Positions 1,060-16,673 of a stretch of 58,059 nt of DNA are shown piece by piece. A model generated the notes under the pieces. It was not told where the DNA came from. It searched no databases and saw only the letters and a program-made list of their open reading frames with translations. Source of the stretch: Phenylobacterium sp. (lineage in GTDB: Bacteria > Pseudomonadota > Alphaproteobacteria > Caulobacterales > Caulobacteraceae). The stretch lies in contig NZ_JAUYAF010000046.1 in NCBI RefSeq assembly GCF_030693625.1, positions 1-58,059 on the forward strand, read 5' to 3'. Each line of letters begins with the position of its first letter. The first letter of the stretch is position 1. A program made the translations under genes and the position numbers.

Positions 1060-1626
1060 TCAGCTCCGGGCCAGGACGACGACATAGGTGCAAGGGTGCG
1101 CGGTCTCGTTGGCGATGGTCACCTCGCCGGGCGGGCCAAAGCCCAGGCAGTCGCCGGCGGCGAGCTCGTGGCGGTCGCCGCCCTCGTGGATGACCAGGTC
1201 GCCGGCCCGCACCCAGACCACCTGTCGGATGTGGGCGTAGGACGAGGCCGGCAGGGTCACGCGCTGGCCGGGGGGCAGTTCGACTTCGACAGTCTCAACA
1301 GGGTGGTCAGGGCGGCTGAACACCTGGCGGCGGCGGTAGCCGGTCTCGGGGTCGCGCCAGACCTGCTGGTCGGCCGCGCGCGTCAGGCGCTCCCCGCCGC
1401 CCTCGGCGCGGAGCAGGAGGCCGGCCAGGGTGAGGTCGAAGGCGCCGGCCAGGCGGACCAGGATGACGGCGGTGGGGCTGACCTCCTGACGCTCGATCTT
1501 GCTGATGGTGGCCTTAGAGACGCCAGCGCGCTCGGCGAGGTCAGCGAGCGACCAGCCGCGCATGTCACGCTCCAGCCTCAGGCGGCTGGCCAGCAGCGCT
1601 CCGGAATCGTCTACTAGAGTATCCAT
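1060..1626 (-). CDS. XRE-family regulator with C-terminal cupin domain
   Basis: A 188-aa protein. Residues about 10-65 form an XRE helix-turn-helix ('WSLADLAERAGVSKATISKIER'). Residues about 110-185 form a small cupin ('YAHIRQVVWVRAGDLVIHEGGDRHELAAGDCLGFGP'). This SutR-like architecture usually represses its own operon and senses a small ligand through the cupin. The start at 1626 (MDTLVDD) fits the family; an upstream extension would add non-homologous sequence. It lies 2 bp before the GNAT gene, a common XRE-cupin/GNAT pair, and is divergent from ilvD with about 150 bp between. A remnant of a related gene sits at 14784-14933. Confidence 0.88.
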   Translation of the reverse strand: MDTLVDDSGALLASRLRLERDMRGWSLADLAERAGVSKATISKIERQEVSPTAVILVRLAGAFDLTLAGLLLRAEGGGERLTRAADQQVWRDPETGYRRRQVFSRPDHPVETVEVELPPGQRVTLPASSYAHIRQVVWVRAGDLVIHEGGDRHELAAGDCLGFGPPGEVTIANETAHPCTYVVVLARS

Positions 1627-1775
1627 TCGTCTTGAATATGAGACGACAAAGGTGAGATCAACCCGATAGCGCGGCGCGGGGCCCACAGGCCGGCAAAAGC
1701 TCACCTCGAAGCATGGACATGGCGGGATGATCACGCCATGTGCAGGCCTTCGCTCCAGAGCCCCTTGAGACCGTC

Positions 1776-3753: not shown

Positions 3754-5280
3754 ATGTCGAACCTGGGAACCATCGCCACGGATCGTCGCACGCTGCTGGC
3801 CGGAGGCGCGGCCGCCGCCCTGTTCACGCCCGGCCTGGCCCTCGCCGCCAGCGGCGACCTGCCCGCCATCCGCAAGGCCGCCGAGGCGGGCTACGCGGCC
3901 TCGGTGAAGCGCATCCAGGACTGGATCGCCCTGCCCTCCATCGCCGCCGAGAACCTCGATATGGAGAAGGGCGCCGACTACATGGCGGCCCTGGCCAAGG
4001 ACGCCGGCTTCCATCACGTCGAGAAGGTGGCCACCGAGGGCGCGCCCGGCGTGTTCGCCACCCTGGATGTCGGCGCCAAGCGCTGGATGGGCATCTACTT
4101 CATGTACGACGTGAAGCAGTACGACCCCGCCGAGTGGAGCTCCCCGCCGCTGGAGGCGCGGATCGTCGACAAGCCCGGCTTCGGCAAGGTGATCGTCGGG
4201 CGCGGCGCGGTGAACCAGAAGGGGCCTCAGGCCGCCTTCCTGGCCGGGCTGCACGCCCTCCGCGCGGCCGGCAAGACATCGCCGGTGAACGTGGTGCTGA
4301 TCTGCGAAGGCGAGGAGGAGATCGGCAGCCCCCACTTCCGCCAGATCGTCACCAAGCCCCACATCCTGGCCGCCCTGAAGAAGTGCGAGGGCGTGATCAT
4401 CCCCGCCGGCTGGCAGAGCCCCAGCGACGGGGGCGTGACGGTCAACCTTGGCGCCAAGGGCATCGTCGAGCTGGAGCTGGTGGCGAGCGGCGCCAAGTGG
4501 GGTCGAGGCCCCAAGACCGACATCCACTCCAGCGAGAAGGCCCGGGTCGACAGCCCGGCCTGGCGGCTGGTGCAGGCGCTCACCACCCTGGTCACTCCGG
4601 ACGGCAACAATCCGGCCATCGACAACTATTTCGAGAAGGTCCGTCCCCTGACACCCCGGGAGAAGGAGCTGATCGCCCTGGCCGGCAAGCAGCTCAGCGA
4701 GGCCGACGCCAAGAAGGCGCTGGGGGTCGAGCACTTCATCGACGACCTGCCCTGGGAGAAGACCCTGGAGCGGCTAGCCTCACAGCCGACGGTGAACATC
4801 GAGGGCCTAGTGTCGGGCTATACCGGCCCCGGCGGCAAGACCATCCTGCCCGGCCGGGCGGTGGCCAAGATGGACCTGCGCCTGGTGCCCAACATGACCG
4901 CCGAGGACTCGGTGGCCAAGCTGCGCGCCCACCTGGACAAGCGCGGCTTTGCGGACATCGAGGTCAATGTCAGCGGCGGCTACGACCCCACCGAGACCGA
5001 CGAGAACAGCCGGCTGATCAAGGCCGAGCTGGCCACCTACAAGCGCAACAAGGTTCCGACCACCATCTATCCCCGCCTGGCCGGTTCGTGGCCAGGGGCG
5101 GTGTTCACCTCGGCGCCGGTCAGCCTGCCGGCCGGCCAGTTCGGCCTGGGTCACGGCAGCGGGGCGCATGCGCCCAACGAGTACTACGTGATCGAGTCCA
5201 GCAACCCGAAGGTCCAGGGCCTGGTGGGCTCGACCATGAGCTATGTGGATTTCCTCTACGAGATCGCCGCAGCGAAGTAG
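3754..5280 (+). CDS. Secreted M20-family peptidase homologue with substituted metal ligands
   Basis: A 508-aa protein starting at ATG 3754, with a twin-arginine-type leader ('TDRRTLLAGGAAAALFTPGLALA'), so it is probably exported folded. The body aligns with M20/CNDP-type metallopeptidases: 'EWSSPPLEARI', 'GRGAxxxKG', 'EGEEEIGS' (catalytic Glu188/189) and 'GAHAPNEYY' (last His). Two metal-ligand positions differ. The His of the usual GHxDV motif is Met117 ('FMYDV'), and the bridging Asp of 'GRGAxDxKG' is Asn154 ('GRGAVNQKG'). It may therefore bind metal differently or be catalytically altered. Its stop is 3 bp from that of the convergent EF-hand gene. Confidence 0.85.
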   Translation: MSNLGTIATDRRTLLAGGAAAALFTPGLALAASGDLPAIRKAAEAGYAASVKRIQDWIALPSIAAENLDMEKGADYMAALAKDAGFHHVEKVATEGAPGVFATLDVGAKRWMGIYFMYDVKQYDPAEWSSPPLEARIVDKPGFGKVIVGRGAVNQKGPQAAFLAGLHALRAAGKTSPVNVVLICEGEEEIGSPHFRQIVTKPHILAALKKCEGVIIPAGWQSPSDGGVTVNLGAKGIVELELVASGAKWGRGPKTDIHSSEKARVDSPAWRLVQALTTLVTPDGNNPAIDNYFEKVRPLTPREKELIALAGKQLSEADAKKALGVEHFIDDLPWEKTLERLASQPTVNIEGLVSGYTGPGGKTILPGRAVAKMDLRLVPNMTAEDSVAKLRAHLDKRGFADIEVNVSGGYDPTETDENSRLIKAELATYKRNKVPTTIYPRLAGSWPGAVFTSAPVSLPAGQFGLGHGSGAHAPNEYYVIESSNPKVQGLVGSTMSYVDFLYEIAAAK

Positions 5281-5283
5281 GCG

Positions 5284-5523
5284 CTACTTGGAGGCCTGCC
5301 GGGCCATGTACCAGGCGCCAAATTCGTGGCCGTCGAGCAGGCCGTCGGCGTTCTTGTCGGCCTTGGCGAACTCGGCGGCCGGCAGCTTGTAGGCGGCCCA
5401 CTCGGCCTTGCTGAGCCGGTCATCCTTGTTGGTGTCGGCGGGATGGATGAACCGGCCCTCCGCCGCCATGGCGGTGGAGGCGGCGGCCAGGGCGGCGGCG
5501 AGGATCAGGAAACTCGGGCGCAT
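5284..5523 (-). CDS. Small secreted EF-hand protein
   Basis: A 79-aa protein with a signal peptide (MRPSFLILAAALAAASTAMA) and two canonical calcium loops. One is 'DTNKDDRLSKAE' (about residues 30-41) and the other 'DKNADGLLDGHE' (about 57-68). Both have acidic or oxygen ligands at positions 1, 3, 5, 9 and 12. It is most likely a periplasmic calcium-binding protein of unknown partner. A larger in-frame ORF extends upstream, but only this part shows a signal peptide and a domain. Convergent with the M20 gene and divergent from msrA. Confidence 0.85.
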   Translation of the reverse strand: MRPSFLILAAALAAASTAMAAEGRFIHPADTNKDDRLSKAEWAAYKLPAAEFAKADKNADGLLDGHEFGAWYMARQASK

Positions 5524-14783: not shown

Positions 14784-14933
14784 TTCATACAGTGTCACCA
14801 GAATTTAGAAGGCGACCACACCACACTGCTGAGCGCCGGCGACCGGCTGGAGTTCGGCCCGCCCGCCGATGTTTTGTATCGCAACGACGGCGAGGCCGTG
14901 GCGCGCTATCTGGTCGCCGTCGTGCGGGGCTAG
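14784..14933 (+). pseudogene. Remnant of an XRE-cupin regulator (C-terminal cupin end only)
   Basis: After a stop at 14781, the frame ending at TAG 14931-14933 encodes 'TTLLSAGDRLEFGPPADVLYRNDG...RYLVAVVRG'. This mirrors the C-terminal cupin strands of the intact XRE-cupin protein at 1060-1626 ('HELAAGDCLGFGPPGEV...TYVVVLARS'). No HTH or start is present upstream, so it is a truncated leftover. A 7-bp GGGCGCC/GGCGCCC hairpin follows at 14948-14971. The gap 14749-15061 otherwise shows nothing recognisable. The remnant sits at the edge of the metal-type module and may mark a recombination junction. Confidence 0.55.
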
Positions 14934-15061: not shown

Positions 15062-15499
15062 CTAACAGCCCTGGCACTTAGACCTGCTTGGCTCCGACAG
15101 GTCCTCGAGGATGACGCAGTTCGGGCCGGGTCCGCCGACACAGACAGCCTCGCAGTCATTCACCATCTGGATGAGGTTGGTCTCTAGCGCCCGTAGCGCC
15201 TCCAGCTTGGCCTGAACGAGAGTCAGGTTGTCGCGCGCCAAGTCCCGAGCGTCCGTACACGAACGATCCTCATTCTCCAGCAGGTCGACCAAGCTGCGGA
15301 CCTGCTCGATGGGAAAGCCAAATTCCCGGCATCGCCGGATGAAGGTCAGGCGAGTGAGGTCGGTTTGGCCATAGGTGCGGTGGCCGCCCTCACGGCGATC
15401 CGGCCGCTTCAGGAGCCCGATCTGCTCGTAATAGCGGATCGTCGGCGGGTTCGTGCCGCTGCGCTCAGCAAGGCGGCCGATAGAAAGGGCGCGGTCCAT
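15062..15499 (-). CDS. MerR-family metal-responsive regulator
   Basis: A 145-aa MerR-family activator. The N-terminal winged HTH is 'LSIGRLAERSGTNPPTIRYYEQIGLL', followed by the dimerisation helix. Cysteines lie at residues 57, 81, 116, 120, 128, 142 and 145. C81, C116 and C128 nearly coincide with the Hg(II) ligands of Tn501 MerR (C82, C117, C126), but the metal-binding loop is a little longer, with an extra Cys ('CEAVCVGGPGPNC') and a CxxC tail. SoxR is ruled out because its Fe-S cluster motif is missing. It is divergent from the three-gene membrane-protein operon at 15667-16673, which it very likely controls. The exact metal is not determined. Confidence 0.88.
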   Translation of the reverse strand: MDRALSIGRLAERSGTNPPTIRYYEQIGLLKRPDRREGGHRTYGQTDLTRLTFIRRCREFGFPIEQVRSLVDLLENEDRSCTDARDLARDNLTLVQAKLEALRALETNLIQMVNDCEAVCVGGPGPNCVILEDLSEPSRSKCQGC

Positions 15500-15519
15500 G
15501 CAGGCTCCGAAAACAACGC

Positions 15520-15550
15520 TTGAACCTCAAGTGACTTGAAGTCCTACAGC
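15520..15550 (+). promoter_or_regulatory. MerR-type promoter/operator with 19-bp spacer
   Basis: A -35 element TTGAAC (15520-15525) and a weak -10 element TACAGC (15545-15550) are 19 bp apart. This over-long spacing is typical of promoters activated by MerR-family DNA untwisting. The spacer holds the dyad ACCTCAAGT-G-ACTTGAAGT (8 of 9 paired), centred between the two elements. The site lies between the divergent MerR gene and the cysteine membrane-protein operon. The half-site resembles SoxR and other MerR-family boxes. The -10 match is poor, as expected for an activated promoter. Confidence 0.65.
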
Positions 15551-15666
15551 TCCACCAGATGAGGGCCGCCCGAGCGGAAGGCAAGCATGACGGACAGTGA
15601 ATCTTCCGTCGCCTGCACCCGCCGCATAGCGAGCAGCTGTCCCTCGGCCTGCGCATGGGAGAACCA

Positions 15667-16056
15667 ATGATGATCGATATCTCGAAAGCCGGCTTGGAAG
15701 CCTCGGTGTCACCAGGGATCATGGACAAGGCCGCGCCGCGCACGGCGCTGGCCACGTCCGGGGGCGCGATGGCCTGCGCGGCCTGCTGCGTTCTGCCCGT
15801 GGCTTTCCCCGCCATCGCCCTGGCCGGCGGGGGCGCCCTGCTCATCTGGATCGACGCGGCGACCAACGTGATGTTCGTCGCGGCGCTGCTGTCGGTGACG
15901 GGAGCGTGGGGCTGGGTGATCTATCGCGCGCGTTCGACCGGCAAGCGCACCGCGAAACCCACCCTGCTGATGATGCAGGCCGCGACGGCCGTGCTGGTGC
16001 TGGGCCTGGCCTTCCCGGCCTACGAACCGTTCGTCATCAAGCTGATCAAGGGCTGA
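15667..16056 (+). CDS. Small MerT-like membrane protein with cysteine motif in TM1
   Basis: A 129-aa protein with three predicted membrane helices (about residues 35-60, 65-88 and 102-125). The first helix carries 'ACAACCVLPVAFPAIALAG', with Cys37, Cys40 and Cys41, resembling the cysteine pair in TM1 of MerT-type mercury transporters. The second cytoplasmic cysteine pair of MerT is absent. I chose ATG 15667, which has GGGAGAA upstream; in-frame ATGs at 15655 and 15670 are alternatives. It is the first gene of a MerR-linked operon and ends 5 bp before the next gene. A soft-metal or metalloid transport role is inferred from context; direction and substrate are unknown. Confidence 0.7.
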   Translation: MMIDISKAGLEASVSPGIMDKAAPRTALATSGGAMACAACCVLPVAFPAIALAGGGALLIWIDAATNVMFVAALLSVTGAWGWVIYRARSTGKRTAKPTLLMMQAATAVLVLGLAFPAYEPFVIKLIKG

Positions 16057-16061
16057 CCGCC

Positions 16062-16340
16062 ATGATGAAGAAGGGCGGAATTCTCGTCGGGGTGGCCTGC
16101 GCCGGAGCCTGCGCCATGCCCCTGGTGATCCCACTCCTGGCGGGCGCCAGCCTGGCCACGGCGGCGGCTTGGCTTGCGAAGCTTGGCTGGGAGGCCATCG
16201 CCTGTGGCGCGCTGGCGCTGGTGGCTGTAGCTGTCCTGTTCGTGAGCGCCCGGCGACCGCGGCCCACCTGCCCCACCGAAGGGGAAAGCTGCCGCATCGA
16301 CGGGCGTTGCGGATGCCGCCCGGGCGCGAAGGCGACATAG
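16062..16340 (+). CDS. Small two-helix membrane protein with cysteine-rich tail (MerF-like)
   Basis: A 92-aa protein with two predicted membrane helices (about 7-38 and 43-62). TM1 contains 'ACAGACAMPLVIPLLAG' (Cys13, Cys17), which aligns with TM1 of the preceding protein. Cys48 lies in TM2. The soluble tail has four cysteines, 'CPTEGESCRIDGRCGC' (70, 77, 83, 85). Size and topology resemble MerF, a two-helix mercury importer, but the tail pattern differs from any family I can name. It was probably derived by duplication of the upstream gene's TM1. It is the second gene of the operon, 9 bp before ynfA. Confidence 0.65.
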   Translation: MMKKGGILVGVACAGACAMPLVIPLLAGASLATAAAWLAKLGWEAIACGALALVAVAVLFVSARRPRPTCPTEGESCRIDGRCGCRPGAKAT

Positions 16341-16349
16341 GGACACTGC

Positions 16350-16673
16350 ATGACCTGGCTGATCTACGCCCTCGCCGCCCTGGCTGAAATCGCAGGGTGC
16401 TTCGCGTTCTGGGCTTGGATCAGGCTTGATCGCTCTCCGCTCTGGATAGCCCCCGGCGTCGTGTCGCTGGCCCTCTTTGCGTACCTGCTCACCCGGGTCG
16501 ACAGCGAGGCCGCGGGGCGCGCCTATGCGGCCTATGGCGGCGTCTACATCGTCGCCTCGGTCCTCTGGCTATGGCTTGTCGAGCATCGGACGCCGGACCG
16601 GTGGGACATCCTCGGCGCGTCGGTGTGCCTCGTGGGCGCCGCGATCATCCTGGCTGGGCCGCGGACGACCTGA
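16350..16673 (+). CDS. YnfA/UPF0060 family small membrane protein
   Basis: A 107-aa four-helix membrane protein of the YnfA (UPF0060) family. It begins '[22 protein letters not shown]' and has the family '[23 protein letters not shown]' and '[19 protein letters not shown]'. YnfA resembles small multidrug resistance (SMR) transporters and is thought to act as a dimeric exporter. Here it is the last gene of the MerR-controlled operon, 9 bp after the cysteine-tail protein. This hints that it helps move the same toxic ion or a complex of it, which is an inference. Confidence 0.88.

Follow-up and report, generated by a model that had tools for sequence, protein, structure and literature searches.

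The window analysed here, a 58,059-nucleotide stretch of DNA, comprises positions 1-58,059 of contig NZ_JAUYAF010000046.1 of Phenylobacterium sp. (Caulobacteraceae; assembly GCF_030693625.1) and contains an operon of three genes, ORF1, ORF2 and ynfA, that is divergent from the gene for a MerR-type regulator. The regulator gene (15062..15499, reverse strand) encodes 145 aa with the Pfam domains MerR_1 and MerR-DNA-bind. ORF1 (15667..16056, forward strand; 129 aa) has three predicted transmembrane helices, the first of which (TM1) carries C37, C40 and C41, and ORF2 (16062..16340, forward strand; 92 aa) has two, with C13 and C17 in TM1, C48 in TM2 and a tail that reads SC-RIDGR-CGC. The third product, YnfA (UPF0060; 16350..16673, forward strand; 107 aa), has four predicted transmembrane helices with E13 in TM1 and is the candidate exporter. 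Intergenic gaps of 5 bp (ORF1/ORF2) and 9 bp (ORF2/ynfA) bear out the layout, a divergent MerR gene and a three-gene operon, that a sequence-only reading of this DNA had described. The start of ORF1 is most likely at 15667 rather than at 15655, since 13 of the 14 best homologues are likewise 129 aa long and GGGAGAA lies just upstream. YnfA scores above its own family cut-offs; ORF1, ORF2 and MerR are below all family cut-offs, general MerR domains excepted.

That reading also held that a mercuric reductase, MerP, a P-type ATPase and arsenic genes were absent, which stands for the whole 58-kb window: single-query searches for MerA, MerT, MerP, P-type ATPase, ArsR, ArsC, ArsH and an ACR3-like/SBF permease found none at E<=1e-3. 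Nor does any protein in the whole genome exceed the MerA cut-off (TIGR02053, best score 343.3 vs 454.45 bits), and a full mer operon with an overlooked reductase was rejected on both counts. Positions 14784-14930 (forward strand) hold the remnant of an XRE-cupin regulator gene, of whose 182 residues only the final 41 match; a full-length frame related to it is found at 1063-1773 (reverse strand), and the corresponding place in the Phenylobacterium locus L005 has an intact gene (4797-5345) plus a GNAT gene.

Regulator and operator

Four cysteines of the regulator, C81, C116, C120 and C128, occupy metal-loop positions (RSC...CEAVCVGGPGPNC). In an alignment of 13 regulators, where two rows (from L002 and L039) represent a MerR other than the one adjoining ORF1, C81 and C128 are kept throughout and C116 and C120 in 12; the MerR-like cysteines remarked on earlier are the set that metal regulators have. 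The protein falls below every NCBIfam metal-regulator cut-off, including that of the MerR equivalog (TIGR02051, 97.7 vs 150.85 bits), and it combines HTH and MerR-DNA-bind domains with an overspaced promoter, as a MerR-family metal regulator would. Promoters of the MerR type have this overspaced layout; the one predicted here, as we read it from the sequence, spans 15520..15550 on the forward strand and consists of TTGAAC (15520-15525), a 19-bp spacer and TACAGC (15545-15550). An operator dyad, ACCTCAAGTGACTTGAAGT (15524..15542, forward strand), with arms that match at eight of nine positions, spans the promoter spacer between the MerR gene and ORF1.

Allowing up to three mismatches, this operator is unique in its own genome. 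A related pattern (up to two mismatches) occurs in 18 of 368 genomes of the family, at one site each, and its reversed form in none. Fifteen of the sites are at ORF1 loci and three (G120, G127 and G139) are between a MerR gene and an ORF2-YnfA pair, with a similar ORF2 tail (CRHDGSCGC in G120). Operator variants are also found at the loci L069, L070, L073 and L006 of Beta- and Gammaproteobacteria, and many kin loci have a similar promoter layout. The palindrome search took a different repeat in L040, L046 and L049, where the pattern search does locate the operator. In L048 it met masked letters; L039, L041 and L055 yielded only degenerate forms, and L075 a dyad of another kind. A stricter pattern had no match at L087 and L092, both from Rhodococcus, or at L088. 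Other plasmid-borne MerR relatives adjoin CC, a further cysteine protein, without an evident exporter, or adjoin copper or unrelated genes; because relatives of the regulator also stand by other gene sets, its presence is not enough to define the module.

The small cysteine proteins and MerT

The only cysteines of ORF1, C37, C40 and C41, belong to a TM1 motif (ACAACCVLP) and are present in all 21 relatives. C40-C41 aligns with the Cys pair of a MerT-like set of seven members in which C24, C25, C76 and C82 are invariant; ORF1 thus has a Cys pair in TM1, as MerT does, and lacks the cytosolic pair (MerT C76/C82). In the hydropathy topology, the loop between helices 2 and 3 contains five K/R and no D/E, so by the positive-inside rule it would be cytosolic.

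In profile comparisons, ORF1 matched the seven-member set with a probability of 99.2% (E 9e-20), and none of 60 column shuffles did as well; YnfA, used as a membrane-protein control, reached at most 0.4%. The set is not independent, its four GDCCVxC-associated members having come to light through the ORF1 profile in the first place. ORF1 of the window's lineage matched these four at 97.4%, and they are tied to MerT by one of them, L057, which matches the MerT model NF010314 (E 1.9e-5); the three GDCCVxC-associated proteins tested (L002, L043 and L057) are under the MerT cut-offs. When the comparison is confined to two bona fide MerT sequences (L069 and L007), the values fall to 70% for the broad ORF1 profile and 23% for that of the window lineage. 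ORF1 itself scores 13.1 vs 130 bits with NCBIfam merT_RC607, the best mer match among its relatives is that of L002 to the same model (E 7.8e-4), and PF02411 matched neither ORF1 nor ORF2 at E<=1. The structure model of ORF1 is poor (pLDDT 56) and therefore lends no structural support to the kinship. On sequence grounds, ORF1 is remotely related to MerT-like proteins (97-99% in profile comparison), with a weaker match to MerT proper. The earlier idea of a new system has to be qualified accordingly: neither small protein reaches a family cut-off, yet they are not without a link to mer. Assignment of ORF1 or ORF2 to a known Pfam or NCBIfam family was rejected, as all matches are below cut-off, including those to holin-like and DUF models, which we judged to be noise. 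In L002, L043, L050, L056 and L057, genes for MerT-like proteins adjoin GDCCVxC genes; this is a sister set in which the loop cysteines of MerT are retained.

ORF2, whose TM1 motif is ACAGACAMP, does have the four-cysteine tail attributed to it: C70, C77, C83 and C85. The last three are kept in every one of the 11 rows in each of the two ORF2 alignments, whereas C70 is kept in 8 of 11 rows of the close and 4 of 11 of the broad alignment. The tail (CRIDGRCGC) resembles the loop of a MerT-like protein (CRTDGSC in L050). Profile probabilities are 58-84% against the MerT-like sets and, against the two bona fide MerT sequences, 12% for the broad and 7% for the window-lineage profile; these last values make the relationship tentative. 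ORF2 may be a MerT-type relative whose tail resembles the loop that is missing from ORF1. MerF has two helices, a Cys pair in TM1 and a cytosolic Cys pair or cysteine tail; ORF2 likewise has two helices, with a non-adjacent C13/C17 and the tail cysteines C77, C83 and C85, and matched no MerF model. The further idea that one of the small proteins arose from the other is weakly supported: the ORF1 and ORF2 profiles match with a probability of 90.9% over 31 columns, but with the window lineage alone this drops to 19.3%, and BLASTP aligns only 14 residues (E 0.049).

Recurrence of the set and its candidate exporters

ORF1 relatives were found in 43 of 390 genomes of the family at E<=1e-3, and at 19 places in 18 genomes at E<=1e-18. 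YnfA lies within 1.3 kb of at least 8 of these 19 close ORF1 places, at least 7 times downstream on the same strand and at least twice with ORF2 between; assuming 1.2 YnfA copies in 3.5 Mb, the chance of such adjacency is vanishingly small. A chance cluster was rejected, given that the set recurs and the operator is tied to the same loci. The full trio with MerR is present in the window and in L005, a Phenylobacterium metagenome-assembled genome whose ORF1 is 89% identical; thus the trio does exist in a second genome, with pairs in others, and the earlier reading withstands its own refuting condition, a trio found nowhere else. The partial versions, ORF1-YnfA, ORF2-YnfA and ORF1-ORF2-permease, likewise stand beside a related MerR and the conserved 19-bp-spaced operator. 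The anticipated MerR-linked, soft-metal-type module of cysteine membrane proteins and YnfA therefore recurs, and it matches no named family set. Among the open-licence PMC papers that searches listed, none describes it at the level of title and abstract opening.

Twenty-four loci were annotated by profile (the window, L002, L005-L007 and L039-L057; L038, from G395, was left out as it shares a contig with L005), several of them close relatives and hence not independent. A MerR match (E<=2e-26) stands beside ORF1 in 21 of the 24; L052 has none in its stretch, and in L056 and L057 the MerR matches adjoin a GDCCVxC-type gene. CC was found at 19 loci, ORF2 at 8, YnfA at 11, an SBF permease at 7 (in L042 only a piece, at a contig end) and neither of these two at 6. 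YnfA and the SBF permease never occur together in the fetched stretches of 4 to 19 kb, and for this reason they look like interchangeable exporters; some genomes with the SBF version (G150 and G163) carry YnfA elsewhere. At the Rhodanobacteraceae locus L006, YnfA and MerR are divergent from CC-ORF1. In plasmid pTSSC1 (L002, 4680-6282), a MerR gene missing from the PLSDB gene table (record positions 85869-86282) lies between YnfA and CC-ORF1.

CC is a cytosolic-looking cysteine protein of about 115 residues in which C67-C68 is invariant among 53 sequences and whose tail carries cysteines (CGCC in four of the first eight aligned). Its structure model is alpha/beta, with no clear fold match. Though common among the 24 loci, CC had no match in the window's own genome, where the cysteine tail of ORF2 may do the job of the CC tail. 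In plasmids, a MerR relative adjoins CC in 12 of 14 matching records and is part of the same protein in the other 2, both from Rhodococcus (L087 and L092), where an SBF permease gene lies downstream of the MerR-CC fusion. A different fusion, CC-ORF1 in a frame of 240 residues, is found in G1001 (L086/L118) beside MerR and a YnfA with an apparently broken frame. The rhizobial plasmids L066, L068 and L088 have a related MerR that diverges from genes for a longer protein of the CC type, for thioredoxin and for CcdA; next comes YnfA in L066, SBF in L068 and neither in L088. This set is a possible redox version of the system.

The third product is a full member of the YnfA family (PF02694, 112.2 vs 24.9 bits; NF002586, 135.1 vs 114). 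Its description as YnfA/SMR-like is sound for YnfA, but its SMR similarity is weak and below cut-off (PF00893, 20.4 vs 23.7 bits; NF007767, E 1.6e-4). E13 is invariant among 11 aligned YnfA sequences. YnfA is present in 154 of 390 genomes of the family, and a second, partial copy lies at a contig end in the window's genome (G000:C62:1-186). Among plasmids, 161 records have a YnfA match; from 60 of these we hand-picked seven YnfA neighbourhoods, of which four have an adjoining MerR relative, one is an ars operon and two adjoin other metal genes. Metal-related genes stand beside YnfA in six of the seven, some YnfA genes being next to a MerR relative and a gene for a P-type ATPase, a cation transporter or a metal-sensing repressor; the seventh has the MerR relative only. 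None of the seven contains a match to ORF1, ORF2 or CC, and three have none to MerR, which indicates that YnfA does not need these partners everywhere. Plasmids also pair relatives of the MerR gene with SBF permeases or with YnfA. The ars operon is that of a Sphingomonas aerolata plasmid (L120), in which ynfA lies within arsR-arsC-arsenic transporter-ynfA-arsH.

Possible function and comparison with known systems

The operon may well encode a system for the capture and efflux of a soft metal. On this reading, to which we give a little less than an even chance, the two cysteine proteins are predicted to hand a thiophilic ion on to YnfA for export. In it, MerR would bind the ion through C81, C120 and C128, perhaps with help from C116, and switch on the promoter; ORF1 would hold the ion at its membrane Cys pair; the tail of ORF2 (the CC tail in kin) would replace the cytosolic Cys pair of MerT that ORF1 is missing; and YnfA, or an SBF-type permease in kin, would export the ion. 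Candidate ions are those of the Hg(II) or As(III) class, and it is the metal, the direction of transport and the role of YnfA that we infer. Such a split-MerT arrangement fits in that the exporters swap, the cysteines are conserved and no MerA exceeds its cut-off. MerT proper takes Hg(II) into the cell, to MerA. Delivery of Hg(II) to MerA is the role given to Mer transporters in PMC8261052. A relative of MerT may take the ion up instead of handing it to an exporter. With no MerA found, import alone would harm the cell, and efflux use of MerT-like parts is the simpler reading. The more specific claim, that soft-metal export is the dedicated task of YnfA, that a split MerT relay supplies it, a mercury-importer family having turned efflux donor, and that an SBF permease can substitute for it, we put forward as somewhat unlikely.

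A system for trivalent arsenic/antimony or methylarsenicals, exported by YnfA or the SBF permease after scavenging by the cysteine proteins, is unlikely to a greater degree, yet it can draw on the SBF permease that swaps with YnfA and whose annotation in Nitratireductor, Cupriavidus, pSinB and Hydrogenophaga reads 'arsenic resistance protein', on ars genes in the stretch at 5 of the 24 loci (a sixth, L040, has a weak ArsR match only), and on YnfA inside the arsR-arsC-transporter-ynfA-arsH operon. Against this, the SBF permease of L043, the only one scanned, had no match among the NCBIfam ACR3 models at E<=0.1, the window has no ars gene, and ORF1 is kin to mercury-transporter-like proteins, with mer genes also near some loci. 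MerA matches occur at 2 of the 24 loci (L006 and L007). The MerT, MerP and MerA matches adjoining L007, and merRTPA beside CC and MerR on plasmid L069, agree with a reduced mer-type uptake system, as do the relationship of ORF1 to MerT-like proteins and the MerF-like topology of ORF2. Here ORF1 and ORF2 would import Hg(II) like MerT/MerF, a reductase or thiol pool elsewhere would neutralise it, and YnfA would be a separate passenger. We regard this as less probable again, because the genome has no MerA over cut-off and the window no MerP, and because YnfA or SBF accompanies the set too regularly for a passenger. With ars genes and MerA matches both nearby, the context does not name the metal as of the Hg or As class.

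Drug efflux has been described for YnfA, and its weak SMR similarity would suit a drug- or cation-efflux SMR-like pump, in which case MerR would sense an organic compound that reacts with thiols, and the role of the small cysteine proteins would be redox or structural. This seems improbable to us: the regulator has the metal-regulator cysteine set, ORF1 is related to MerT-like proteins, and plasmid YnfA genes so often have metal-related neighbours (all but one of the hand-picked seven, the last having a MerR relative only).

If the capture-and-efflux reading holds, MerT-type proteins do not depend on a reductase to function, a class of metal-handling genes is overlooked when mercury and arsenic genes are counted in metagenomes, and CC, ORF1 and ORF2, for which no Pfam or NCBIfam model is over cut-off, gain a likely role. 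Should YnfA prove to be the exporter of a split MerT relay, the two cysteine sites of MerT would have moved onto separate proteins, in a reductase-free class of metal(loid) resistance that is patchy in Alpha-, Beta- and Gammaproteobacteria and reaches Actinobacteria as MerR-CC proteins. YnfA is widespread and yet uncharacterised in Pfam, and the regulator, an operator seen only at these loci (among 368 family genomes) and the cysteine partners make its substrate directly testable.

Compared with known systems, the pair of small proteins is like MerT/MerF (PF02411 and kin) in being small membrane proteins with TM1 cysteine pairs and an adjoining MerR gene, ORF1 having three predicted helices. 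It differs from mer in that ORF1 is without C76/C82, no MerA in the genome is over its cut-off, no MerP is in the window, and the partner is YnfA or an SBF permease. The strongest profile match to ORF1 (97-99%) comes from the MerT-like proteins that neighbour GDCCVxC genes (L043, L050, L056 and L057) and likewise have adjoining MerR matches; these keep the loop cysteines (CRxDxxC) and adjoin a GDCCVxC gene, whereas the window has ORF2 and YnfA in that place. Likeness to ars operons lies in the SBF permeases, some of them labelled 'arsenic resistance protein', that take the place of YnfA in kin, and in the YnfA of one ars operon; unlike ars operons, the window has no ArsR, ArsC or ArsH, and a MerR-type regulator instead. 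That regulator shares with CueR, MerR, CadR and ZntR the MerR domains, the equivalent of Cys81 and a 19-bp promoter spacer, and CueR has the same C-x7-C spacing; it differs from them in falling below all equivalog cut-offs, in the extra C116, in a GGPGP loop and in its operator, CTCAAGTnACTTGAAG. Finally, whereas Pfam lists the YnfA/UPF0060 family as uncharacterised, the copy in the window sits in an operon with a MerR operator and cysteine partners.
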